Virus record (IMG/VR): IMGVR_UViG_3300045004_000250
Location: 1-41,933 of that record
DNA from: a virus
Length of the DNA stretch: 41,933 nucleotides
Reading direction: 5' to 3' (one strand)
Part shown: one piece after another, positions 1,948 to 41,933 of the stretch
How the letters are laid out: the number at the start of each line of letters is the position of its first letter
Numbering within the stretch: the stretch's first letter is position 1
Notes under the pieces: model-generated
The model's database searches: none
Told to the model about the DNA's origin: nothing
What the model saw: only the letters and a program-made list of their open reading frames with translations
Translations under genes and position numbers: made by a program

Positions 1948-3285
1948 TTACGTCCTCACGACAGAATTGCGCAGGATCGCGGCCGGAACGCCCCCATGAA
2001 GTTCACTCTGAGCTTCATCGACGGACGAAACATGGTTGGGGACGAGCAGCGCGAACCGCCGTCCGGTGCCGCACATCGCATCAAGCATGCGCTGTGGCCC
2101 GTTATCGGGCAGGTTGACCTCTACGAGCTTACCCCAGGCTGGGTCGCCGCTGTCGTCGAGCGTGACCGCACCCACCTCATCGAGGATATGGTGCCATCCG
2201 ATGATCTCGCAGGCGGCTGCGCGCTGGTCGAGATTTTCCCAGGTCAGGGCCTCGGCCGGTGTCGGCGGTCTATCGGTCACCCACGCGGCGGGTATCGACT
2301 GTCCATGCCATGTGTGAAGTGCATAGCCGTCCGCCCATTCAACGGACGGACCCGTCTCGCCGTGAAGTAGTCTGCTGTCATCCCAACGAACCCTGATCGG
2401 CTTTTCCGAGGCAATGACGATACCTTCGAACGGCCACCAGTATCCGCACTGTGAGGAAATGCCCTCCATGATGTCGAGGCGCCGAGCACTATCCTCGTCA
2501 TATCGAGCCCCAATCTTCTGGCCGAACCGGCAGAATGCCAGCCAATAGAGGTCGAAGGCACCCCAGAGATAGCCGCCTTCCCATAGACCCTCATTGTCGA
2601 GCTGGCTGTCGAGCTGGCTGTAGAGCTGGCTGCGGAGCTGGCTGTAGAGCTGGCTGTAGAGCTGGCTGTAGAGCTGGCTGCGGAGCTGGCTGTAGAGCTG
2701 GCTGTCGAGCTGGCTGCCGAGCTGGCTGTAGAGCTGGCTGTAGAGCTGGCTGTAGAGCTGGCTGTAGAGCTGGCTGTAGAGCTGGCTGCCGAGCTGGCTG
2801 TAGAGCTGGCTGCGGAGCTGGCTGTAGAGCTGGCTGTCGAGCTGGCTGCCGAGCTGGCTGTAGAGCTGGCTGTAGAGCTGGCTGTAGAGCTGGCTGCGGA
2901 GCTGGCTGCCGAGCTGGCTGTAGAGCTGGCTGCGGAGCTGGCTGTAGAGCTGGCTGTAGAGCTGGCTGTCGAGCTGGCTGTAGAGCTGGCTGTCGAGCTG
3001 GCTGCCGAGCTGGCTGTAGAGCTGGCTGCGGAGCTGGCTGTAGAGCTGGCTCAACCCCTTCTCGCCCATCTTGAATATCTTAATCGCCAGCATGCAAGCA
3101 GCAGGGCTATCGAAGATGAACAGCGCGGGTGCAGGCTTACCGATTAACGCATAGGCATCGTTCAGATGGCCTTGAAGCTTCTCGCGATTAATTCGCGAAC
3201 CGCCGCATGCGATGTCCAGATATTTCTGCCTGAATGCGGGAAGCTCGGCCTCCTGTTCCGGCGTGAGCTTCATGATCTTCGCCAT
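1948..3285 (-). CDS. DUF6745-like protein with 38-unit SQLx tetrapeptide repeat
   Basis: 445 residues from ATG 3285, chosen because GGAGG lies 5 bases upstream and because the more distal GTG at 3393 falls inside the PL promoter, upstream of the expected transcript start. Residues about 1-75 form a helical cap (LTPEQEAELPAFRQKYLDIA). About 150 residues are then built of S-Q-L-x units in which x is only Y, R, G or D. The C-terminal half (GYWWPFEGIVIASEKP, ETGPSVEWADGYALHTWHG, and a LDxxG segment) resembles the DUF6745 region. The biochemical function is unknown. It is the first gene of the left operon. Confidence 0.75.
   Translation of the reverse strand: MAKIMKLTPEQEAELPAFRQKYLDIACGGSRINREKLQGHLNDAYALIGKPAPALFIFDSPAACMLAIKIFKMGEKGLSQLYSQLRSQLYSQLGSQLDSQLYSQLDSQLYSQLYSQLRSQLYSQLGSQLRSQLYSQLYSQLYSQLGSQLDSQLYSQLRSQLYSQLGSQLYSQLYSQLYSQLYSQLYSQLGSQLDSQLYSQLRSQLYSQLYSQLYSQLRSQLYSQLDSQLDNEGLWEGGYLWGAFDLYWLAFCRFGQKIGARYDEDSARRLDIMEGISSQCGYWWPFEGIVIASEKPIRVRWDDSRLLHGETGPSVEWADGYALHTWHGQSIPAAWVTDRPPTPAEALTWENLDQRAAACEIIGWHHILDEVGAVTLDDSGDPAWGKLVEVNLPDNGPQRMLDAMCGTGRRFALLVPNHVSSVDEAQSELHGGVPAAILRNSVVRT
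2597..3051 (-). repeat. 12-bp in-frame tandem repeat array (about 38 copies)
   Basis: The plus-strand unit is GAGCTGGCTGNN with a variable dinucleotide/codon. Read on the minus strand each unit encodes x-S-Q-L, and x is encoded only by TAC, CGC, GGC or GAC (Y, R, G, D). I count 37 xSQL units plus an initial SQL. Units are otherwise almost identical at the DNA level, including synonymous positions, which implies recent slippage or recombination-driven expansion. Larger blocks such as Y-R-Y-G-D-Y also recur. Changes of whole units would alter length in frame. Confidence 0.95.
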
Positions 3286-3384
3286 CTCATCCTCCATTTC
3301 GGCCCGACGCTCATCCGAGGGGGCGTGGAGAGCGTCGGGCCATTGCTCCAAGCGGTCTGGGAGAGAGCGCTTGGGATGAGATCG

Positions 3385-3413
3385 ATAATGCACATGTGCA
3401 GTTATCGCGTCAA
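3385..3413 (-). promoter_or_regulatory. PL-like promoter of the left early operon
   Basis: On the minus strand, TTGACG (3408-3413) and CATTAT (3385-3390) are separated by 17 bases, and the palindromic operator TGCACATGTGCA occupies the spacer. Transcription would start near 3377 and read leftward into the DUF6745-like gene. A repressor on the operator would cover the promoter completely. Confidence 0.65.
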
Positions 3414-5115: not shown

Positions 5116-5661
5116 CTATCCAGATTGAGATTTGTCGCGCTGCGAACGTTCGATTACGACGAGCGCGCGATCGAGCAGCCCCTGAAGCCGCTCCGGAGAT
5201 CGTTCGTACTCGTCATTCGATCCGACAGTTTGCAGCACTACGCCGAGTTCTTGAGCAACGGCTAGAATCGACGCTTCAGTCACTTGGGCAGCCGACAAGG
5301 CGGGTGCAAAGGCTCTGAGGATCGCAGCCAGCGTTTCGTCGCTGGGAATTGCGGCGCCTGGTTGAACCGGACCACTGTGCAGATAATCTATAATTGATGG
5401 AGCGCCAGCAGCTTCCGCCAGAAGGTGCAGGTTTTCGATCTTGAGTGTCGTTTTGGCATCCGGCCCCATCCCCCGCGTTATCGTGGTTGGGCTTATCGAT
5501 GCCGCCTTTGCCCAAGCGGCTGCGTTGTCGAACCTACGATTTGGAGATGAGAGGACGCGGTCCCTCCAACGGCTGATCGCTCTGATCGCGGTCCGCTTCG
5601 CTGCTGAGACTTTCTCGTTTTCCACATCATCAGAATAGCCGTTACGGGCCCAACGGCGCAT
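5116..5661 (-). CDS. CI-type prophage repressor (HTH, no S24 peptidase domain)
   Basis: Divergent from the Cro-like gene across an operator region, the diagnostic position of a lambdoid repressor. About 181 residues from ATG 5661; a GTG at 5625 is equally plausible because operator sequence ends only 3 bases before 5661. An XRE-like HTH lies in AAAWAKAASISPTTITRGM, followed by LKIENLHLLAEAAGAPSIID. The C-terminal part is helical (LAAILRAFAPAL, ITEA-type helices, ERLQGLLDRALVVIERSQ) and shows no Ser/Lys peptidase motif of LexA/CI, so RecA-stimulated self-cleavage is not expected. Confidence 0.8.
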   Translation of the reverse strand: MRRWARNGYSDDVENEKVSAAKRTAIRAISRWRDRVLSSPNRRFDNAAAWAKAASISPTTITRGMGPDAKTTLKIENLHLLAEAAGAPSIIDYLHSGPVQPGAAIPSDETLAAILRAFAPALSAAQVTEASILAVAQELGVVLQTVGSNDEYERSPERLQGLLDRALVVIERSQRDKSQSG

Positions 5662-5663
5662 GG

Positions 5664-5698
5664 GGCACATATGCATCTTGTCATGCTGCACATGTGCA
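5664..5698. promoter_or_regulatory. OR operators between the repressor and Cro-like genes
   Basis: GGCACATATGCA (5664-5675) and the perfect palindrome TGCACATGTGCA (5687-5698) lie 23 bases apart. The second is part of an 18-base segment found exactly at OL (3389-3406). The left site abuts the repressor start, and the right site fills the spacer of PR, so occupancy of the right site would block cro transcription. Confidence 0.75.
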
Positions 5699-5706
5699 GT
5701 TATCAT
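5678..5706 (+). promoter_or_regulatory. PR-like promoter of the right early operon
   Basis: TTGTCA (5678-5683) and TATCAT (5701-5706) are separated by exactly 17 bases holding the main operator. The expected transcript start is about 5712-5714, which coincides with the cro ATG (5714), so the mRNA should be leaderless or nearly so. Confidence 0.7.
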
Positions 5707-5713
5707 GGCGCTC

Positions 5714-5914
5714 ATGATCGACCCCCTAGACCCAACCACGCTGCAATCCGCGCGCGTAGCTGCCGGGCTTTCGAGGAGCGAATTGTCTGCTCTGTCGAAG
5801 GTTCACGAGACGACGATCATGCGCATCGAGAAAGGGGAGGTTGATCCTCGCCTTGACGGCACATGGGCTCCAATTGTGCGAGCGCTCCAGTCAACGCCTC
5901 GGGCAGCCGCATAG
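5714..5914 (+). CDS. Cro-like HTH regulator, 66 aa
   Basis: A small XRE-type helix-turn-helix protein: LQSARVAAGLSRSELSALS, then VHETTIMRIEKGEVDPR is a canonical HTH_3 pattern. Its position as first gene rightward of the OR region makes it the Cro counterpart of the CI-like protein. The start was placed at ATG 5714 because it lies at the expected start of the PR transcript; ATG 5705 is inside the -10 box and has no ribosome binding site. The next gene follows after two bases. Confidence 0.8.
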   Translation: MIDPLDPTTLQSARVAAGLSRSELSALSKVHETTIMRIEKGEVDPRLDGTWAPIVRALQSTPRAAA

Positions 5915-29082: not shown

Positions 29083-29768
29083 TGGCAAGCAACCCCTTCG
29101 GCATCACTCAGGTGGATGTGCCTAGCATGCTTTCACTCTATGAGGGTGTGAAGCGCTCCCGTCTGGAGGATTTGTACCGCCAGAAGATGTTCGAGCGGCA
29201 GGAGCGCACAGACGCGCGCGAGGAGCAGGACTATCAACGGCAGACACAGGCACGAGAGGCAATCCAGCGCGGCGCAAAGCCCGATGAAGTGATCGCGCTA
29301 GATCCAAAGCTCGGGTTCGACTACGCATCACATGCAGCAACGCTGGAAAAATCCAAGCGTGAAGAGATCGCGCGCCGCGCCGACGACGTAGGAAGCGCGG
29401 CCCTGTATCTTTCGGAGCTGACCCCAGATCAGATGGCAGCGCAATGGGACGGCGTGCTCGATAGACTGATCGAGCGCGGTTACACCGATCTGGAGGCCTA
29501 TAAGGGCAAGCCCAATCGCGCGGCGTTGGGGCCGATCATCGCTGCCTCCCAGGAGGCGGTCAAAGCCTATCTCGCTGGACAGCAGAAAGATGACGAGATG
29601 GCCCTTCGTGAGCGTCAGATCGGTATCTCGCAGGGCAATCTTGATCTTGCCCGGCAGCGCGAGGCGCGGGTCACGAAATGGGGACCGCAGCCCCTCATCG
29701 GCATGATCGGCGCGGGATCAATACCGGGCGGTCGCGGCCAGAACGACACCAGCGATTTGGATTACTGA
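29082..29768 (+). CDS. Internal virion protein, 228 aa
   Basis: Start overlaps the previous stop (TGATG). FGITQVDVPSMLSLYEGVKR at the N-terminus, then long charged helices (MFERQERTDAREEQDYQRQ, QAREAIQRGAKPDEVIALDP). The position between gp7-like and the large ejection protein corresponds to gp20 of P22. The similarity is one of place and composition. Confidence 0.65.
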   Translation: MASNPFGITQVDVPSMLSLYEGVKRSRLEDLYRQKMFERQERTDAREEQDYQRQTQAREAIQRGAKPDEVIALDPKLGFDYASHAATLEKSKREEIARRADDVGSAALYLSELTPDQMAAQWDGVLDRLIERGYTDLEAYKGKPNRAALGPIIAASQEAVKAYLAGQQKDDEMALRERQIGISQGNLDLARQREARVTKWGPQPLIGMIGAGSIPGGRGQNDTSDLDY

Positions 29769-29770
29769 CG

Positions 29771-32221
29771 ATGGCACAGCCTAAGCCTTCAGAAGTTGCG
29801 ATGACTCCTCGTATCGCCAAGCTGATCGAGCTTGAGACGAGTGGTCGCATCAAGCCGGAACACCTTCAGGAATTGAATGCCTATCGTGCTCAGGGCATTG
29901 CACCGCCACGCCCAAAAGGAGCGCCAACGGCTGACATCAATCGCCTGTTCGATAATGACGAGGTGCTGCGTCAGATCGGGATGGCGCGCGAACTGGTTAA
30001 TCGGCGTCTCGCAGGCGGCGCGAACGTTCTTTGGTCGGGCGTGCCGAATACGGAATCGCGTGATCTTGCGGGCACACTGTCGACGATCGGCTCCAACATA
30101 ACGACGGGCAGGCTCGCCCAGCTCAAAGAATCGTCCCCGACGGGTGCATCCGGGTTTGGCAGTCTCACCGAGAAGGAGGGGCAGCTTCTTCGCGACGCGA
30201 TTGCTGCGATCGATCAGGGTCAGTCGGACGAAAAGCTTCTCGACAGCCTGAATACGATCGAGCGCCGCTATAAGAGGCTCTCCGGGGCGATGCGAGGCAT
30301 CAACCCCGATGAGGCTGAAAATCTGCCCACCATCAGCCCGTCGCCACCGCCCATGGGAGGTAAACGCAGTGAAGCTGTTCCGCCCGTTCCCGGCGTGTCA
30401 GGCGGGAACGGTCCCAATCCACCTGATGGAGGATCGCCGCTATCCCCTAATCAGCTAACCCTTGCGCAAGGCGGCGCTGCAACCGATGTCAGCGCGTCCA
30501 CGCGGGCGATGGAAGGTAAGATTGCCTCGCTTGTGGCGAGTGGCGCGTCGGCCGACGATGTCCGCGAGTACATCCGGTCGGCGGGGATCGATCCCGCTAC
30601 CGTTGCCGGCATCGACGAAGCGGTGAAGTTCCGGGCGGACAATCCTGCATATAAGGGAAGCTTCAGCGTCCAGTTGAGCAAGGCCGTCCCCATGTCGTCC
30701 ACAGAAAAGGCCATCAACTCACTGGCCCAATCGCCTGTGGGCGCGTTCGCCGTTGGTGCAGGAAATGCGGTTACCGGTGGCTATCTCGATGAATTGACCC
30801 CGGATCCAGCATTGTCGCAGGCCGGCAAGGAGTTGTTGCGTCGTGAAAACCCGGCGGCCGACTTCGCAGGTAACGTTGCCGGCGGAACCGCGATGGGGCT
30901 GGGCGGCGAGCTGGCTCTAGCGCGACTTGGAGTCAGGGGCGCTCAGGGCGTCCTAGCTCCGCGCGCATTGGCAGCAGATGCCGGCTATGGCGCGTTGTAC
31001 GGTTCCGGCGAAAGCAATGACGACCGGCTGTCTGGTGCCGGGCTGGGCGCGCTTGGCGGCGCCGGTGGGGGCGTCGCCGGGCGCTTCCTGACCAACTCGG
31101 TCGGTCGCGCAATCTCTCCCACTGGGGGAGCATTGCGCGAGCTTTATGAAGCCGGTGTGAGGCCGACTCTGGGACAGCGGTTCGTCAATTCTGGGTTGGT
31201 GGGCAATGCCGTGAATGCGACCGAGGAAGCCCTTCAGAGCATCCCCTTGGCAGGAGCAGCAGTACGCGGGGCACGAGGAAAGGCGCGCGAGCAATTCGAG
31301 CGAGGTGCCTTCAACTCTGCATTGACCGAGATCGGGGACAAGCTGCCTGATGAGATGGCGCTCGGAACCGAACCTCATGCTTATATGCAGCGCGCTTTCT
31401 CGGATGCCTATGACAAGGCGCGGTCAGGAATGTCCTTTGTACCCGATGCGCAATACCAGGCAGATCGCGCGGCGTTTGCCCAGGAGCTTGGCAAGGGCGT
31501 GCTCAGTGCGGATCAGGTCGAGAAGGTCACGCGCATTCTGGATAATGTCGTGACTTCGCGCCTTCAGGCCGGTCAAGGGTCTTTGACAGGCGACGCCTAT
31601 AAGGTCGCAGCATCGGAACTAGGGAAGGCATCGAAGAAGCTATCGGCCGCAGAGCCCTTGGTTGCGGACGCGCTCAGCGAATACATGAACATATTTGATG
31701 ATGCGGCACGCCGCAGCAGCTCGCCTGAGGCTGTGGCATTGTTGGATGCAGCCGACAAGGGGTACGCGAAGGCTGTTCGCATCGAACAGGCTGCGGCGGC
31801 ACGAGGAGCAAATCAGGAGGCGGGGCGATTCACGCCGAGCCAGTTTGATCGCGCCGTTCAGCAGGCAAGCGGGGGCGTGCGCAGCAGGGCCTATCTTCGC
31901 GGCGATGCGCTGATGAGCGACTATGCAGAAGCCGGTAAGGCTCTGTCTGACCGCTTGCCAGACAGCGGCACCCCGACACGCCTGATGACGGGTGCGCTCT
32001 TGGGTGCTGGAACGATAAAGATGGGGCCTGCCTTCGCCGTTCCTGTCGCGGCCACGATGCCCTACATGCCCGTCGCGCGAGACTTGGCGACGAGTTTCCT
32101 CGCACCTCGTTCATCGAAGAGATTGAGGACGCTGGGAGAGCTGTTCAAGCAGAATGCCGATGTCGGCGGCGCTGCGGGCGTGCCCGCGCTGCTAGGTCTT
32201 ACGGTGCCGCCTGGAGACTAG
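29771..32221 (+). CDS. Large ejection protein (P22 gp16 position), 816 aa
   Basis: ATG 29771 was chosen over an upstream frame start that lies inside the previous gene. Helical and disordered N-terminal part (about 1-280, LIELETSGRIKPEHLQELNA), a Gly/Ala-rich central region (about 330-460, VTGGYLDELTPDPALSQAGK, then GGGVAGRFL) that may interact with membrane, and a helical C-terminal half. Proteins of this build are common third ejection proteins in podoviruses; P22 gp16 has 609 residues. No lytic domain was seen. The stop ends the rightward virion operon. Confidence 0.7.
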   Translation: MAQPKPSEVAMTPRIAKLIELETSGRIKPEHLQELNAYRAQGIAPPRPKGAPTADINRLFDNDEVLRQIGMARELVNRRLAGGANVLWSGVPNTESRDLAGTLSTIGSNITTGRLAQLKESSPTGASGFGSLTEKEGQLLRDAIAAIDQGQSDEKLLDSLNTIERRYKRLSGAMRGINPDEAENLPTISPSPPPMGGKRSEAVPPVPGVSGGNGPNPPDGGSPLSPNQLTLAQGGAATDVSASTRAMEGKIASLVASGASADDVREYIRSAGIDPATVAGIDEAVKFRADNPAYKGSFSVQLSKAVPMSSTEKAINSLAQSPVGAFAVGAGNAVTGGYLDELTPDPALSQAGKELLRRENPAADFAGNVAGGTAMGLGGELALARLGVRGAQGVLAPRALAADAGYGALYGSGESNDDRLSGAGLGALGGAGGGVAGRFLTNSVGRAISPTGGALRELYEAGVRPTLGQRFVNSGLVGNAVNATEEALQSIPLAGAAVRGARGKAREQFERGAFNSALTEIGDKLPDEMALGTEPHAYMQRAFSDAYDKARSGMSFVPDAQYQADRAAFAQELGKGVLSADQVEKVTRILDNVVTSRLQAGQGSLTGDAYKVAASELGKASKKLSAAEPLVADALSEYMNIFDDAARRSSSPEAVALLDAADKGYAKAVRIEQAAAARGANQEAGRFTPSQFDRAVQQASGGVRSRAYLRGDALMSDYAEAGKALSDRLPDSGTPTRLMTGALLGAGTIKMGPAFAVPVAATMPYMPVARDLATSFLAPRSSKRLRTLGELFKQNADVGGAAGVPALLGLTVPPGD

Positions 32222-32288: not shown

Positions 32289-32621
32289 TTATAGGGGTTC
32301 CTTGTGTTTTAGGCCAGCTTCTCTTTTTTTGACGAAAGCGCGGAAACTCTGGATGTCGTCGAACTTCCTGATTGGAAGCCATATGGATTGGCCATCCAGG
32401 TCTGAGGGCTCGTAGTAGCGCCATGTGCGGCCAGTCGCGGTATCGAGGATCATCATTCGCTGGTAGCCAGTCCTTTCAATCAAGACAAAGCGCTGCTTCT
32501 CGGATGGCGCTGCTGGCGGTTGAATCGCTGAGTTGAGAATGGTGACGGTAGTCAATGCTGCAATGCAGCATGTGATGGTGAATGCGCAAATACTCAACAG
32601 TGCCTTGCTAAGCTTGTCCAT
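32289..32621 (-). CDS. Small membrane protein in the sieA position, 110 aa
   Basis: ATG 32621 has GGGAGGGG upstream. One N-terminal membrane segment (about residues 8-31, LLSICAFTITCCIAALTTVT) is followed by a soluble domain (RFVLIERTGYQRMMILDTAT, then YYEPSDLDGQSIWLPIRKF). It is transcribed leftward after the Mnt-like gene, where P22 carries sieA, a superinfection exclusion gene. No sequence similarity to SieA is visible, so the assignment rests on synteny and membrane topology. Confidence 0.65.
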   Translation of the reverse strand: MDKLSKALLSICAFTITCCIAALTTVTILNSAIQPPAAPSEKQRFVLIERTGYQRMMILDTATGRTWRYYEPSDLDGQSIWLPIRKFDDIQSFRAFVKKREAGLKHKEPL

Positions 32622-32644
32622 CCACCCCTCCCGTTTCGGGGATG

Positions 32645-33004
32645 CTACGATTCTTTCAGGCCCTTTTCAACAAGGCGGCGAGCAAGAGCCTCCCGCTCCG
32701 CCTTGTTCGGCACGGGGTAGAAGACCACGCGGCCATCATCGACTTCTACGCGCCAGGGATTGGCTGCGAGGGCGAGCCCATCGTTCACGGCAGCGATAAA
32801 GCTCTTATCCCTAGTATCCTCTGATATCATCTCCAGAAACATCGCGATTTCGTGGAGATTGACGCTCGGGTGCGGGAATTCTCGCTCCAAAACGGATAGG
32901 ATCAGCGCGTTCAGGCTCTGGTTCGCCTGTTGTGCAGCGAACTGCACGCGCTCTTTCAGGTCAGCCGGAAGGCGAAGCTTCATTTGCGGGTCTTCGCGAG
33001 ACAT
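32645..33004 (-). CDS. Mnt-like ribbon-helix-helix repressor
   Basis: 119 residues from ATG 33004, preceded by TTTGGAG. The N-terminus is an Arc/MetJ-type RHH: strand QMKLRLP (about residues 7-13), then ADLKERVQFAAQQANQSLNA and LILSVLERE. The C-terminal part (about 50-119) is longer than in P22 Mnt (82 residues) and ends in helices (NKAEREALARRLVEKGL) that may form the tetramer. It is divergent from the Arc-like gene across three operators. It is expected to repress the antirepressor in the lysogen. Confidence 0.85.
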   Translation of the reverse strand: MSREDPQMKLRLPADLKERVQFAAQQANQSLNALILSVLEREFPHPSVNLHEIAMFLEMISEDTRDKSFIAAVNDGLALAANPWRVEVDDGRVVFYPVPNKAEREALARRLVEKGLKES

Positions 33005-33033
33005 GGCGACTCCAAATTTTCTTATCCTATGGA

Positions 33034-33092
33034 CCACGGTGGGGTTGACTTCAAGGAACCACGGTGGTGTAACTGCTTCGGAACCACCGTGG
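33034..33092. promoter_or_regulatory. Three immI operators at 25-bp spacing
   Basis: CCACGGTGG at 33034-33042 and 33059-33067, and CCACCGTGG at 33084-33092. The third is the most symmetrical, AACCAC-C-GTGGTT. Start-to-start spacing is exactly 25 in both intervals. Site 2 fills the spacer of the rightward promoter, site 1 lies just before its -35 box and site 3 around the transcript start. Probable targets of the Mnt-like and Arc-like proteins. Confidence 0.8.
33045..33073 (+). promoter_or_regulatory. Promoter of the Arc-like and antirepressor genes
   Basis: TTGACT (33045-33050) and TGTAAC (33068-33073) with a 17-base spacer that contains operator 2. Start of transcription is expected near 33080, within operator 3's left edge, and 30 bases before the GTG of the Arc-like gene. 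Confidence 0.6.
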
Positions 33093-33110
33093 TTCTGGAA
33101 GGAGGTTTAA

Positions 33111-33272
33111 GTGACATCGCAGATCGCGCCCTTTGGATTGCGAATGCCGGATCGGCTTAAGGAGCAGGTTCAGCAGCTCGCGCGCGCGGAGGACCGTTCG
33201 ATGAACAGCTTCATCGTGCGGACCCTGAAAACTGTCGTCGAAGAGAAAACGGCGTCCGAGCCCACGGTGTAG
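33111..33272 (+). CDS. Arc-like ribbon-helix-helix repressor, 53 aa
   Basis: Starts at GTG 33111 after the strong site GGAGG. The product begins MTSQIAPFGLRMPDRLKEQV and has the Arc order: strand FGLRMP (compare FNLRWP of P22 Arc), helix A (DRLKEQVQQLARAED), turn RSMNS, and helix B (FIVRTLKTVVEEK). It has 53 residues, the same length as P22 Arc. In P22, Arc limits its own and ant transcription after infection; the same role is likely. It was too short for a 60-residue filter. Confidence 0.85.
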   Translation: MTSQIAPFGLRMPDRLKEQVQQLARAEDRSMNSFIVRTLKTVVEEKTASEPTV

Positions 33273-33287
33273 GAACCGGCCCGGACG

Positions 33288-33304
33288 CCTTTCACATCGA
33301 AAGG
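33288..33304 (+). promoter_or_regulatory. Hairpin at the ribosome binding site of the antirepressor gene
   Basis: CCTTTC (33288-33293) and GAAAGG (33299-33304) pair perfectly with a 5-base loop. The 3' arm contains the AAAGG that serves ATG 33312, so initiation should be damped. In P22 the ant mRNA is controlled at the same step, by the sar RNA. Confidence 0.45.
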
Positions 33305-33311
33305 ATCGAAT

Positions 33312-34160
33312 ATGAACGCAGCAACACATAAGTCATTTCGCGAGCAGACACCAGCGATTGTCGTCAACAACGTGTCGATGCTGCCTATCGAGGTGAATGG
33401 TGAGCGCGTCGTCACCCTCGCCATGATCGATAGGGTCCACGGACGGTCAGATGGCACTGCCAGACGAAACTTCAACGCGAACCGCTCTCGGCTCGTTGCC
33501 GGAGAGGATTTCTCAAAAATAAGCGCGGACGAATTTCGTACGCGCTTCCCAGGGCAATTGTCTGGACGCGTGACCGAGGATGTCACGGTCCTAACCGAGT
33601 CCGGCTACCTCATGTTGGTGAAGAGCTTCACCGATGATCTTGCCTGGGCGGTCCAGCGCAGCCTTGTGCGAACATATTTTGCGAAGCCGGCGAACAACGA
33701 CCCACAACCGCTTCATGTCGCCGAATCCCGAGAGTTCCGCCTTGCGATGAATCTCAACCTCAAGATGGCGAAGATGGCGGGGCTCGTCGGCAATCAGGCT
33801 CTCATCTCTGCCAATAACGCGACAGCCAAGCTGACAGGCGTTAACGCCCTTAAGCTTCTGGGTGTATCGCATATGGATGCGCCGCAGAACGAAGCGCTGC
33901 TGATACCTACGGAGATCGGCAGGCGTACCGGCCTGGGGTCGGGACGGGTGGTTAACGCGCGGCTATGCCTCTTGGGTCTGCAATGGCAATTCCGGGACGC
34001 CAAGGGTCACGTTTATTATGAGCCCACGGATGCAGGGATCAAAGCCGGCGCGGTGATGCAGGACACCAGCAAAAAGAACGGAGACGGCACGCCCATTCGC
34101 CAGCTGAAATGGGCGAGTTCGATCATCGAATACCTCAAGGGCAGGGAGGGCACGGCATGA
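33312..34160 (+). CDS. ORF6N-domain antirepressor (Ant-like)
   Basis: 282 residues. The ORF6N domain covers about residues 12-125: VSMLPIEVNGERVVTLAMID, then RNFNANRSRLVAGEDFSKIS and VLTESGYLMLVKSFTDDLAW with QRSLVRTYF. The C-terminal half (about 150-282; KLLGVSHMDAPQNEALLIPT, then LGLQWQFRDAKGHVYYEPTD) is of the type found in phage antirepressors. It lies downstream of the Arc-like gene in the P22 immI order and should inactivate the CI-like repressor when made. Confidence 0.85.
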   Translation: MNAATHKSFREQTPAIVVNNVSMLPIEVNGERVVTLAMIDRVHGRSDGTARRNFNANRSRLVAGEDFSKISADEFRTRFPGQLSGRVTEDVTVLTESGYLMLVKSFTDDLAWAVQRSLVRTYFAKPANNDPQPLHVAESREFRLAMNLNLKMAKMAGLVGNQALISANNATAKLTGVNALKLLGVSHMDAPQNEALLIPTEIGRRTGLGSGRVVNARLCLLGLQWQFRDAKGHVYYEPTDAGIKAGAVMQDTSKKNGDGTPIRQLKWASSIIEYLKGREGTA

Positions 34161-34426
34161 CGGACCCCACGGAACTTCATCCGCCGTTGTCGCCGATCAA
34201 AATTACGCGGCATCCTGACGATGGCGACACATACCTGCTCAACATCCCGGCATGCATTCGTATTGCGAGGGAAGGCGAGACGGAAAAGTCGCGCCTTCTG
34301 TATCGAACGTATGTGGCCGAATACCGAGCTTTAGCCGGGAGCCCTCTCACCCACGAAGAGCGTGAAACGACTGCATGGTGGGCGGCCGCAACGAAGATGG
34401 GCTGGCGCTTCAAGCCGCTCGTCTGA
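34157..34426 (+). CDS. Hypothetical protein downstream of the antirepressor, 89 aa
   Basis: ATGA overlap with the antirepressor gene. The product has HPDDGDTYLLNIPACIRIAR, then EKSRLLYRTYVAEYRALAGS and a helical end with two tryptophans (TAWWAAATKMGWRF). No family is recognised. Co-translation suggests a role in the immunity switch, but no more can be said. Confidence 0.55.
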   Translation: MTDPTELHPPLSPIKITRHPDDGDTYLLNIPACIRIAREGETEKSRLLYRTYVAEYRALAGSPLTHEERETTAWWAAATKMGWRFKPLV

Positions 34427-34477
34427 ACAAGCGAACGGCGCGGAGTCTAGCACACCCCGCGCCGCTCTTGACCTCAA

Positions 34478-34494
34478 CACCTTCATCGGAGGTG
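34478..34494 (+). promoter_or_regulatory. Short hairpin covering an SD
   Basis: CACCT (34478-34482) pairs with AGGTG (34490-34494) across 7 bases and covers the GGAGGTG ribosome binding site of ATG 34498. Complements of an SD are short, so this one could be chance; it is listed because the same arrangement is stronger at other genes here. Confidence 0.3.
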
Positions 34495-34497
34495 AAT

Positions 34498-34704
34498 ATG
34501 GCTGCCGTTATCATACCATTCCCGACCAAGGGTACCAACAGGGAAGAATCGCAGAGGGAGAACAGCATTGCCCTCTATCGTGCTGACATCGAGCGCTACC
34601 GCATGGCGATCGCCATCGACACCGATCTTTTGAGGGCATGTGAGAGCAGATTGGCGCAACTGCTTGCCGAGGATGCCAAAATAACGAGAGGAATGGGCGG
34701 GTAG
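34498..34704 (+). CDS. Small hypothetical protein, 68 aa
   Basis: ATG 34498 with GGAGG 5 bases upstream, chosen over a longer upstream frame. The product (MAAVIIPFPTKGTNREESQR, then IALYRADIERYRMAIAIDTD and a helical end) begins with a short strand and continues as a coiled coil. No known family. It is the last gene before an intrinsic terminator. Confidence 0.6.
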   Translation: MAAVIIPFPTKGTNREESQRENSIALYRADIERYRMAIAIDTDLLRACESRLAQLLAEDAKITRGMGG

Positions 34705-34741
34705 GGATGCGGGCGCTTCCGCCTGATATTCCATGCGCATG

Positions 34742-34774
34742 AGGGCGGTTCTTCGGAGCCGCCCTTTCTCTTTT
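34742..34774 (+). terminator. Intrinsic terminator with UUCG tetraloop
   Basis: AGGGCGGTTC-TTCG-GAGCCGCCCT (34742-34765) is a 10-bp stem with one G-U pair, capped by a C(UUCG)G tetraloop, and is followed by TTCTCTTTT (34766-34774). It ends the immI-like operon before the tailspike gene. Confidence 0.9.
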
Positions 34775-34888: not shown

Positions 34889-37414
34889 TTGACGACCCCG
34901 ACGCTTTTCGACACCGGCATATTCTCGGTCACTGGTCTACAGAGCGAACTCCTGATCGGAGCGAAGCTCTATTGGTACGTCGCGGGAACATCCATCCCGG
35001 CGACGACCTACGCAGATCCCGGGCTGACCGTCGCCAACCCAAATCCCGTAATAGCCGACGCCACTGGTCGCTTTCGGGAGATATGGCTTGGTGATGGGCC
35101 TTTCAAATATATCCTTGTCGCTCCGAATGGGGATTTGGGATCGCCTCTCGTTTCCGTTGACGACTTCACTCCGTCCGGCTCGCAAATAGACGGCGCCATC
35201 ACCGGACTGCTTGCGGATTTAGCCACCCCCACCGGCTCCTCCCTGATCGGCTTTATCCAGTCCGGAACCGGCGCCGTCGCGCGAACGGTGCAAGACAAGT
35301 TGCGCGATACGATCAGCGTCAAGGATTACGGCGCAGTTGGCGATGGTATCACCAACGACACCACCGCGATCCAGAACGCAATCAACGCGGCAGCGGGACG
35401 CGCGAAGGTTGTCTTTCCGGCGGGGACATATCTGGTCACCGCCAGTGCCAACGCGATGCCTTTCCCCTGGTTTGGCGGCATCGTCGTTCCGAGCAACTCC
35501 TATCTCTCGTTTGCGAAGGGGGCCGTCATTCAGGTCGCTTCGAACGCGCTGACCAAATATTTCTGCTTCAGCCTCTACGCCGTGCAGAACGTCGTGATCG
35601 AAGGCGCGACGATCATCGGGGATCGGACGACCCACACCTATTACAACTGGTTCAACACCCTCTCTGACCTGAACGCCAACAACTACCGCACCAAGGATAA
35701 TTACAACCCTGATCCGCCGGTCTGGCCTGATGGGTCGGTGGCCTATGTGAACGCCGACATATCGGCGAACAACGGAACCTATACGCGCCAGTCTGGCGTC
35801 TGGGTGCGGACATCTCCCACGGTTATTGCGTATGTCACCCATGAGTTCGGCATGGGGATCAACGTCTACAATTCCCAGAACGTCTGGATCGACAAATGCT
35901 CGGTCTCGAACTTCACCGGGGATTCGATATTCATTGGCGACAGTAATGTCGGGCCATCGCCTTCGAATGGCGCGGCTACCCGCTCGATATTCGTGACGGG
36001 CTGCAATCTGGAAGGTTCTCGCCGTCAGGGGATTTCGCTTGTTGGCGGCGGCGTCGTTGGGATCTCCAACAACAATTTCAAGAATATCGGCATCCGCCTG
36101 AACTTCCAGGATGGCACCGCCCCTCGGGCAGGGATCGATGTCGAATATGGGCTGCCGTACAAGTCGTCACTGGTCAACATCGTTGGAAACAACTTCACCA
36201 ACTGCGTCGGCTTCTCGGTCAGCCAGTATGACGGCAACAACGTGTCCATCGTCGGAAACACGATGGACACCCAGATATCCTATGGGTTCGGCGTCAATAC
36301 GACGATCAGCGGCAATTCGATTAACCTGCAAGCCGGTACGGCAACGGGGACAGCCATCATCGGTAATGGCCCGAGAACGCCGATCGCATTCACCTACACC
36401 CAGTCCGGCACGACGATGACCATCACGACGGCATCGCCTCATACGTCGAACAGCGGCGATGTTCGGTATTTCGAATTCTATGACGCCAACGGGATGGTCG
36501 TCTATAGTGGTGAATTCGTGGTTTCGGTCGTATCGGCCACGGTGCTGACGATCAATACACCCAACTACACGTCGGCCTCAGGTTCGGGCTCGCTGGCTTA
36601 CCCTATCAACAATATCGCGATCACCGGCAATACGGTCGTCGGAGGAGCGCTGAGCGTTTCTGGCTATGGTGTGACCGTATCTGGCAACCTTGTCTTTAAC
36701 GCTCCCAATCAGGCGATATTCTTGAATGCCAGTTGTAGAGATGTGGTGGTCAACGCCAACCACATTAACGGCGCCACCATCGGCGTGGCATCGGCTGCCG
36801 GCCATTCGAACGTTACCATTTCGAACAACATCATCAAGAATTGCAGAACCCAAGCCATTGGCGCAACCGGAGCAAACACGGTTGTAAAAGGCAATTCGAT
36901 CACCCGCTGCGCCGCCGGTATCGTTGCCAGTGCAGGCAATGGCAGCATCAGCGGCAATTTCATCAATCTCAGCGATTATCCGGTAGGGCCGAACAGCGCG
37001 ATCAGCACGGCAGGTGCGTCGACAGTTTATGAGGTATCGGAAAATACGATCCTCAATCATCCGAACGGCTACTGCATCAGCGTCGTCGCCCCGACGAAGA
37101 TCATCCGCAACAAGCTCCTCGGGTGGACTGGTGGCGGGGGGATTCTGGTCTCAGGTGCTGCTTCCGATGGCTCATCCGCCATCGGTAATATCATCGAGTC
37201 CAATCGGGCCACCACGGGTACGAGTATCGGCCTCACGGTCAGCGCCAACACCAAGTTCCGTGCCATCGAAAATGTGATCTACGGGGCGAATGCGGCGCTG
37301 TTCCGCTCAATCGACACGGCGGCCTCCACCAACAGCCGCATCACCAACAACGTCTACGACGGGACGATCAACAACAATGGGTCGGACACGCTGACCACGA
37401 ACGTGGCTTACTGA
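34889..37414 (+). CDS. Tailspike protein with pectate-lyase-like beta-helix
   Basis: 841 residues from TTG 34889. Residues 1-100 (LFDTGIFSVTGLQSELLIGA, then TYADPGLTVANPNPVIADAT) are a virion-attachment domain common to podovirus spikes. VKDYGAVGDGITNDTTAIQN (144-163) opens the right-handed parallel beta-helix, and repeated VxISNNxIxN-type rungs run to about residue 760 (for example VTISNNIIKN, GNTVVGGALSVSG). A trimeric enzyme that binds and probably cleaves a surface polysaccharide is expected. No autocleavage motif was recognised. Confidence 0.9.
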   Translation: MTTPTLFDTGIFSVTGLQSELLIGAKLYWYVAGTSIPATTYADPGLTVANPNPVIADATGRFREIWLGDGPFKYILVAPNGDLGSPLVSVDDFTPSGSQIDGAITGLLADLATPTGSSLIGFIQSGTGAVARTVQDKLRDTISVKDYGAVGDGITNDTTAIQNAINAAAGRAKVVFPAGTYLVTASANAMPFPWFGGIVVPSNSYLSFAKGAVIQVASNALTKYFCFSLYAVQNVVIEGATIIGDRTTHTYYNWFNTLSDLNANNYRTKDNYNPDPPVWPDGSVAYVNADISANNGTYTRQSGVWVRTSPTVIAYVTHEFGMGINVYNSQNVWIDKCSVSNFTGDSIFIGDSNVGPSPSNGAATRSIFVTGCNLEGSRRQGISLVGGGVVGISNNNFKNIGIRLNFQDGTAPRAGIDVEYGLPYKSSLVNIVGNNFTNCVGFSVSQYDGNNVSIVGNTMDTQISYGFGVNTTISGNSINLQAGTATGTAIIGNGPRTPIAFTYTQSGTTMTITTASPHTSNSGDVRYFEFYDANGMVVYSGEFVVSVVSATVLTINTPNYTSASGSGSLAYPINNIAITGNTVVGGALSVSGYGVTVSGNLVFNAPNQAIFLNASCRDVVVNANHINGATIGVASAAGHSNVTISNNIIKNCRTQAIGATGANTVVKGNSITRCAAGIVASAGNGSISGNFINLSDYPVGPNSAISTAGASTVYEVSENTILNHPNGYCISVVAPTKIIRNKLLGWTGGGGILVSGAASDGSSAIGNIIESNRATTGTSIGLTVSANTKFRAIENVIYGANAALFRSIDTAASTNSRITNNVYDGTINNNGSDTLTTNVAY

Positions 37415-40593: not shown

Positions 40594-40648
40594 TGGCTTT
40601 CGGCTAATTTCCGAGGCTGGCGCGGCGGCCCCAATGTTCTCGCATAGG

Positions 40649-40690
40649 GGTTTTCAAGACCGCTGCCTTAAACCACTCGGCCACCTCTCC
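40649..40690 (-). tRNA. tRNA-Ser(UGA), 5' half only, cut at the prophage attachment site
   Basis: Read leftward from 40690: acceptor GGAGAGG, a D-arm with GGCCGAGTGGTTTAAGGC, then the anticodon arm GCGGTCTTGAAAACC with anticodon TGA. After this the sequence departs from any tRNA-Ser: the 3' side of the anticodon stem is mispaired (ACCCC), and no variable arm, TTCGAAT loop or acceptor complement follows. The shared core is probably near GGTTTTCAAGACC (40649-40661). Everything to the left is prophage, and the right side is host. Confidence 0.7.
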
Positions 40691-40814
40691 GTCGGGCCAG
40701 CCCGAGGGATGTCCGCCCTTATCGCCGCTGCGGCCTTTCGTGCAAGTCGCGCGATCAAAGCATTTCACCCCCGGTCCAAGCTGTGGCAAGCAGGCTGCGG
40801 ACAAAGGGGTTGGA

Positions 40815-41933
40815 ATGCGAAGTTCGGTGTTGCGTGGGGCGGTTGCCGCCTTGGCTTTGATGGCGGCGGTGGCCGGGGCGATGCCGGCGGTCGCGCAGCC
40901 GGTGCTGGAAGAGGGGCAGGCGCCCGACGATGCGGCGCGGCTGACCGACGCCCCCGCCGCCGCGGTTCCGACCGAGGACAGCCGGATGCGCGCCTTCATC
41001 GCCACGCTGCGTCCGCGCGCGCTGGCGATGGGGATTTCGCCGACCCTGTTCGACGCGACCCTGCCAACGCTCAGCTTCAACGCGCGGGTGGTTCGGCTCG
41101 ATCGCGGTCAGCCCGGCGCGACGCCCGGCAGCACCGCCGCGCCACCACCCTTCGCGCCCTATCTCGCCAGCCATGTCGACCGGGTCCGGATCAACATGGG
41201 CCGTTCGCGCTACGGCTCGCTCCGCCCGCTGCTGCTGCGGATCGAGCAGGAGACGGGGGTTCCCGAGCAGATCATGCTCGCCATCTACGGGCACGAGACC
41301 GGCTACGGCACCTTCACCGGCAATTTCGACCTGCTCAACGCGCTCGGCACGCTGGCCTATGAGGGCCGCCGGCGCGAGCTGTTCGCCGACGAGTTCCTCA
41401 AGACGCTGCTGCTGATGAACCGGGGCGTGCCCCGCAGCCAGCTCAAGGGAAGCTGGGCGGGCGCCACCGGCTATCCGCAGTTCCTGCCGAGCGTCTACCT
41501 CCGCCTCGCCATCGACGGCGACAATGACGGCAAGGCCGACATCTGGCGCAGCGAGCCCGACGCGCTCGCCTCGATCGGCAATTATCTGCGCGACGCGGGC
41601 TGGAAGAAGGGCGTCCCCTGGGGCGTGGCGGTGCGTGTTCCCGAGGGGATCGACCGGGCGGCGATCCGTTCGCCCCTGTCCTCGCCGCGCTGCCCGCGCG
41701 TGTTCGCCCGGCAGAGCCGCTGGCTGACCATCGCCGAATGGCGCGACAAGGGACTGATGATGCTGAGCGGCCGGGTGCCCGCCGAGGACGAGCTGGCGAC
41801 GCTGATCGAGCCCGACGGCAACGGCAATACCGGCTATCTGCTGACCACCAACTACCGCTCGATCCTCGATTATAACTGCTCCAATTTCTACGCGCTCTCG
41901 GTCGGCCTGCTCGGCGACGCGATCGTCGAATGA
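40815..41933 (+). CDS. Lytic murein transglycosylase, MltB/SLT_2 family (host gene)
   Basis: 372 residues from ATG 40815, with a Sec signal peptide (residues 1-27, cut at AVA-Q); the upstream extension of the frame has no signal. The SLT_2 domain holds the catalytic Glu in YGHETGYG (E161), then NFDLLNALGTLAYEGRRREL, LKGSWAGATGYPQFLPSVY and a C-terminal NYLRDAGWKKGVPWG. It cleaves peptidoglycan glycan strands to 1,6-anhydro ends in the periplasm. As a housekeeping gene beside tRNA-Ser it marks the chromosome flank of the prophage. Confidence 0.95.
   Translation: MRSSVLRGAVAALALMAAVAGAMPAVAQPVLEEGQAPDDAARLTDAPAAAVPTEDSRMRAFIATLRPRALAMGISPTLFDATLPTLSFNARVVRLDRGQPGATPGSTAAPPPFAPYLASHVDRVRINMGRSRYGSLRPLLLRIEQETGVPEQIMLAIYGHETGYGTFTGNFDLLNALGTLAYEGRRRELFADEFLKTLLLMNRGVPRSQLKGSWAGATGYPQFLPSVYLRLAIDGDNDGKADIWRSEPDALASIGNYLRDAGWKKGVPWGVAVRVPEGIDRAAIRSPLSSPRCPRVFARQSRWLTIAEWRDKGLMMLSGRVPAEDELATLIEPDGNGNTGYLLTTNYRSILDYNCSNFYALSVGLLGDAIVE

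Follow-up and report, generated by a model that had tools for sequence, protein, structure and literature searches.

The window, as we call the whole stretch of DNA analysed, comprises the 41,933 nucleotides of the IMG/VR virus record IMGVR_UViG_3300045004_000250 and carries a compact regulatory cassette between the genes for an ejection protein and a tailspike. The ejection protein gene (29768..32221, plus strand) occupies a gene 16-like position 5' of the cassette and matches phrog_2534 (4e-6), which is annotated as 'released from the phage upon host infection'. Beyond it lie two genes on the minus strand, one for a small membrane protein of 110 residues (32289..32621) and, after a gap of 23 bp, one for a Mnt-type RHH repressor of 119 residues beginning MSREDPQMKLR (32645..33004), the two probably being co-transcribed. 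The plus strand then encodes an Arc-type RHH protein of 53 residues (33111..33272), with a GTG start after AAGGAGG, an ORF6N-type antirepressor of 282 residues (33312..34160), and two small orphan ORFs of 89 residues (34157..34426, overlapping the antirepressor stop) and 68 residues (34498..34704). A terminator-like hairpin with an 11-pair stem and a T-rich tail (34741..34766, plus strand) stands at the end of the cassette, such sites being no more numerous in the scan than in shuffles, and the tailspike gene follows at 34889..37414 on the plus strand (phrog_2234 tail spike, 3e-46; Beta_helix).

The initial annotation had described this gene order, with its RHH and ORF6N assignments, from the letters of the DNA, and both are upheld: all the ORFs are present, and Pfam assigns the Arc domain to the Mnt-type (8.6e-6) and Arc-type (1.4e-8) proteins, each above the gathering cut-off, and ORF6N to the presumed antirepressor (2e-13). 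All cassette frames are intact and the ribosome site is good. Neither the membrane protein, in which a single N-terminal hydrophobic stretch can be read, nor the two orphan ORFs gave a significant family match in Pfam, PHROG and further family searches.

The virion genes of the window, which resemble those of P22 only remotely, include Terminase_3, an SU10-type portal and adaptor, the head closure protein Hc3 and the DNA ejection protein; of these, only Hc3 (phrog_578, 2e-105) and the ejection protein family fit a tail machine like that of P22. At the right end, the 5' half of a tRNA-Ser gene (40647-40690, minus strand), ending at the anticodon, adjoins a host-like lytic transglycosylase gene (40740-41933; SLT_2, 3e-82) with 73% DNA identity to Sphingomonas parapaucimobilis over 701 bp. 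This is probably the provirus–host junction, with the attachment site in tRNA-Ser, and the flanking gene, being closest to Sphingomonas, supports the alphaproteobacterial host given in the initial annotation and points to a sphingomonad-like bacterium. The record looks like a provirus, yet no integrase was found among the ORFs scanned in the window (1-41933), and its gene may lie beyond the left end of the record; a temperate life cycle is suggested by the host junction together with the cassette and a gene for a repressor-like protein. Elsewhere, the minus strand at 1948-3393 encodes a protein in which a DUF6745 domain comes after numerous tandem repeats of SQLYSQLxSQL.

Two relatives display other states of the same junction. 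In L099, whose ejection protein is 44% identical to that of the window over 800 residues, the tailspike starts 240 bp after the ejection gene and the cassette is absent, leaving an empty site. L024 (IMG/VR 3300017694_000007) has a cassette at the same genomic place, with a 120-residue Mnt-like protein 56% identical to that of the window, three operators and a 51-residue Arc-like protein; unlike the window, it has an antirepressor of another type and no membrane-protein gene was seen beside mnt. P22-like phages carry in the late operon, where gene 16 meets the tailspike gene, a variable, separately transcribed insertion, often with ant, that has been termed the 'ant moron' (PMC2629481).

Between the divergent RHH genes lie the three operators that the initial annotation had pointed out. 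Cores of the form CCACSGTGG occur at 33034, 33059 and 33084, spaced by 25 bp, and are the sole three in the window, against 0.39 expected and with none of 100 shuffles reaching 3. Two of them are perfect over 11 bp, while operator 1 (33034..33042, core CCACGGTGG) has an imperfect outer base, reading ACCACGGTGGG. Operator 2 (33059..33067, core CCACGGTGG) falls where P22 has Oarc, inside the 17-bp spacer of a predicted arc-ant promoter (33045..33073, plus strand) composed of a -35 TTGACT (33045-33050) and a -10 TGTAAC (33068-33073) that is weak, at four of six positions, and absent from the output of a generic promoter scan. Operator 3 (33084..33092, core CCACCGTGG) lies at about +5, where P22 has Omnt. 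A leftward promoter for the mnt-like gene may be read on the minus strand at 33024..33054, with a -35 TTGAAG (33054-33049) and a weak -10 near 33031-33024, and operator 1 would fall in its spacer. The back-to-back arrangement of -35 elements, TTGACNNCAA, recurs across loci, and the NNCAA that follows TTGAC would serve the opposite promoter as its -35.

A reading of the operators as a LexA box was rejected, as the GAAC-N7-GTTC element is inverted, unlike the direct repeat of the alphaproteobacterial LexA box. Downstream, a stable hairpin (33251-33290, z -2.2) extends over the stop codon of arc and the gap before ant, near the position of the sar antisense RNA in P22; the promoter scan gave no clear leftward promoter for such an RNA.

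P22 itself was represented by X01916 (L007), in which mnt, arc, ant and both promoters are annotated, and by the complete genome. The 9-bp core of the X01916 site GGTCCACGGTGGACC, the established Mnt operator of P22, is identical to that of the window. With the core nearest arc as reference, the elements at -39 and -16 are TTGACA and TATATT in P22 and TTGACT and TGTAAC in the window, and arc starts after 29 nt in P22 (as annotated) and 27 nt in the window. P22 Mnt (1mnt, 8.7e-4) is also the sole solved structure matched by the Mnt-like protein, over its first 47 residues only, and no close relative was found among named phages at E 0.01. The Arc-like protein matches AmrZ, Mnt and Arc in the PDB. 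The DNA-reading head of the Mnt-like protein and its operator look homologous to those of P22.

How widely this arrangement occurs was surveyed from the operators alone, by searching IMG/VR and the GTDB genomes for two copies of ACCACSGTGGT separated by 12-15 nt, with no protein used in the search. This returned 87 stretches (46 from IMG/VR, 41 from GTDB genomes), and the absence of any match to a reversed control pattern in IMG/VR led us to reject a chance origin. An Arc/Mnt-type RHH gene, detected with a home-made HMM and with its start no more than about 100 bp from the operators, was present in 73 of the 87. Of the 14 stretches without one, 11 lie within open frames and have a spacing of 24 nt, which is divisible by three; these are probably repeats in coding sequence rather than modules, and L065, L071 and L091 are the others. 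A second pattern, one operator with TTGACNNCAA, yielded 11 further loci in IMG/VR, every one with an RHH gene on the predicted side. The hosts of the RHH-bearing genome matches include Rhizobium, Shinella, Methylobacterium, Bombella, Cupriavidus, Pseudomonas, Stenotrophomonas and Halomonas.

The orientation of the promoter is strongly conserved. Among 66 non-redundant loci with at least two operators, the window counted, TTGAC stands exactly 2 nt past an operator core in 57 and is directed away from mnt, towards the Arc/antirepressor side; in none of the 66 does it occur in the direction of mnt. The next operator sits in the spacer of that promoter and, in three-operator loci, the third is often near the start point. 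Genes of the antirepressor superfamily were found in 49 of 79 loci and always on the TTGAC/Arc side (L024 is counted there, its two RHH labels having been interchanged in automatic labelling). The searches from the operators alone thus show the operator to be a marker of RHH modules, and its combination with this promoter is found in dozens of unrelated prophages. Pfam types among the 51 antirepressors scanned, in counts that overlap as one protein may hold two, were pRha (17), ANT (10), Bro-N (9), P22_AR_N (7), ORF6N (7), KilA-N (6) and AntA (5). The gene behind mnt is not conserved across loci, in contrast to the antirepressor side.

Several groups of loci depart from this plan. In Pseudomonas, L012, L045, L068, L090 and similar loci combine a Mnt-type repressor and the same operator array with a small excisionase-like gene and a filamentous-phage-like gene and have no antirepressor there; in these cases filamentous prophages appear to be under the control of the Mnt-type operator. 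Rhizobial elements (L050, L070, L078, L079, L085, L087, L096) have a Mnt-type gene and two to three operators followed by a phage-type integrase gene, and belong to the loci without an antirepressor. The Mnt/Arc modules of L103 (Acinetobacter phage qsb1, with a BRO-type antirepressor), L111 and L112 carry asymmetric operator-like elements, TATAACGGTG, which are perhaps a diverged half-site.

The surveyed proteins can be read against their operators. Mnt-type proteins have Q-K-R at the DNA-reading (beta-strand) positions in 67 of 69 loci, where the core is flanked by A..T, whereas P22 Mnt has H-N-R with a T..A flank and ST104-type Mnt has Q-N-R with an A..T flank. This pattern fits a selection of the flanking base of the operator by residue 6, on the basis of few independent changes. 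A divergent short RHH protein of the Arc-like kind occurs in 44 of the 69 non-redundant loci, and in 20 of these 44 its readout is Q-K-R, the same as that of its Mnt partner; the window protein, with P-G-R, differs from P22 Arc as well as from the Mnt-like proteins. In related modules the Arc-like proteins range from 39 to 74 residues, mostly 50-60, so that while the length of 53 residues noted in the initial annotation is correct, it was rejected as evidence of kinship with P22.

ORF6N proteins are called antirepressors by annotation, and few have been tested. In the window protein the ORF6N domain scores 50.9 bits against a curated cut-off of 27.8, with no match to P22_AR_N in Pfam, and PHROG assigns the protein to anti-repressor families (6e-32). 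Alignment reveals an ORF6N N-terminal domain followed by a C-terminal domain that recurs behind other antirepressor N-terminal types; a single-sequence search of IMG/VR gave no close relatives. Structure prediction had been proposed as a check in the initial annotation. The two RHH helices are visible in the AlphaFold model of the Mnt-like protein, which has low overall confidence (pLDDT 66); the AlphaFold2 model of the ORF6N protein has a pLDDT of 82, and a fold search with this protein gave no match at E<=0.001. The ORF6N protein would inactivate the prophage repressor, and its presumed target is the repressor-like (CI-like) protein encoded at 5116-5739, which has a weak repressor-type PHROG match (3e-3) and no S24 peptidase match in Pfam. 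As a repressor lacking the S24 peptidase domain would escape SOS cleavage, an antirepressor would be needed for induction.

We consider it likely that the cassette is an immI-type antirepressor control cassette, or ant moron, carried by a podovirus-like prophage, with the Mnt-like protein keeping the promoter of the antirepressor silent and the ORF6N protein disabling the main repressor. In a lysogen, the Mnt-type protein would occupy the CCACSGTGG operators; with both operator 2, within the spacer of the promoter, and operator 3, at its start point, filled, RNA polymerase would be excluded from the arc-ant promoter and no ORF6N antirepressor would be made, while operator 1 in the mnt promoter would provide autoregulation. 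Where the Mnt-like protein is absent or titrated, on infection, superinfection or induction, the arc-like and antirepressor genes would be transcribed, and inactivation of the main CI-like repressor would lead to lytic growth. The Arc-like protein may then end the burst of antirepressor after infection.

Other roles can be envisaged. The Mnt/Arc pair could control an ORF6N protein that, instead of being an antirepressor, binds DNA and acts directly on phage or host promoters in a host take-over. In keeping with this, the protein is predicted to have two mixed alpha/beta domains such as occur in nucleic-acid-binding proteins, and the fold search gave no antirepressor structure, but PHROG places the protein in anti-repressor families and six other such families, P22_AR_N included, hold the equivalent position in other modules, and we regard a take-over function as unlikely. 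RHH proteins are common as antitoxins, and the leftward pair of mnt-like and membrane-protein genes, with its 23-bp gap, could form a toxin–antitoxin or exclusion unit, the RHH protein acting as an antitoxin-like autoregulator for the membrane protein while the rightward genes make up a unit of their own; this is very improbable given that the conserved -35 beside the operators never faces the mnt side and that it is the antirepressor side, not the gene behind mnt, that is conserved. Least probable of all is a decayed cassette that retains operators and repressors with an antirepressor matching no repressor of this phage, which the altered outer base of operator 1, the rapid flux and occasional degradation of ant morons (PMC2629481) and the proposed remnant status of the lone mnt of phage L (PMC8022706) might suggest; against it, the frames are all intact, the ribosome site is good, two operators are perfect over 11 bp and the spacing of the promoter is conserved.

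Decades of work have treated P22 immI as an oddity confined to a few phages of enterobacteria. Prophages of sphingomonads, rhizobia, and beta- and gammaproteobacteria conserve the Mnt operator core and the way it fits the promoter, with the antirepressor freely exchanged. It is possible, and we put it forward tentatively, that CCACSGTGG - TTGAC - CCACSGTGG is a portable 'socket' of proteobacterial prophages, read by Mnt-type repressors, into which no fewer than seven families of antirepressor have been fitted and, where the prophage is filamentous, an excisionase-like gene, and that the Mnt-like and Arc-like proteins of many modules share a single set of operators as a two-repressor switch, as opposed to the two separate operators of P22. 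We found no report of this wider operator–promoter signature in the open literature, subscription journals being outside its scope, and among the papers listed for the operator string all were unrelated. The operator pair with TTGAC offers a sequence signature for antirepressor cassettes missed by annotation, and the loci are natural protein–operator pairs for the classical problem of Arc/Mnt recognition, namely residue 6 against the flanking base. They also offer a way to see, and to test, how modules for prophage induction are mixed.

Among known systems, the Pf filamentous prophages of Pseudomonas have an Arc-family RHH gene adjoining an excisionase gene (PMC7549136). The related loci L012, L045 and L068 carry an operator array of the window type; unlike the window, the Pf prophages are filamentous, lack an adjoining antirepressor and have no operator described in that paper. 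As with the ant morons (PMC2629481), the window insertion lies at the ejection-gene/tailspike junction, is missing in L099 and has another version in L024, although the host lineage and virion genes, with an SU10-type portal, are far from Lederbergvirus. Neither portal nor coat is of the P22 type, the portal matching SU10_portal and the coat Phage_capsid_4.

The P22-type immI layout proposed in the initial annotation is supported, and the parallel goes further than could be seen there. The complete P22 genome has the order 16 - sieA - ORF59 - mnt - arc - ant - 9, and the window shares its gene order and directions, the place between gene 16 and the tailspike, a Mnt-type RHH repressor transcribed away from arc-ant and a small Arc-type RHH gene directly before the antirepressor gene. 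It also shares the operator core CCACGGTGG, the -35/17/-10/10/operator spacing and the presence of a Mnt operator core, that of operator 3, at the arc-ant start point. In contrast to the single Omnt and single Oarc of P22, the window has three Mnt-type operators, the second of which takes the promoter spacer with no P22-type Arc operator, and it has two extra small genes. The membrane protein sits where P22 has sieA and is not SieA, so that the parallel drawn with that gene is positional only. The suspicion that the module was assembled from other parts holds for this protein, for the antirepressor (ORF6N in place of P22_AR) and for the unrelated tail of the Mnt-like protein, longer as had been stated (119 residues vs 83 in P22), but not for the DNA-reading head of Mnt and its operator. 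Since the cassette has neither the Arc operator of P22 nor an antirepressor of the P22_AR family, we prefer to think of the cassette as a variant of the P22 immI/ant-moron type rather than a strict member.
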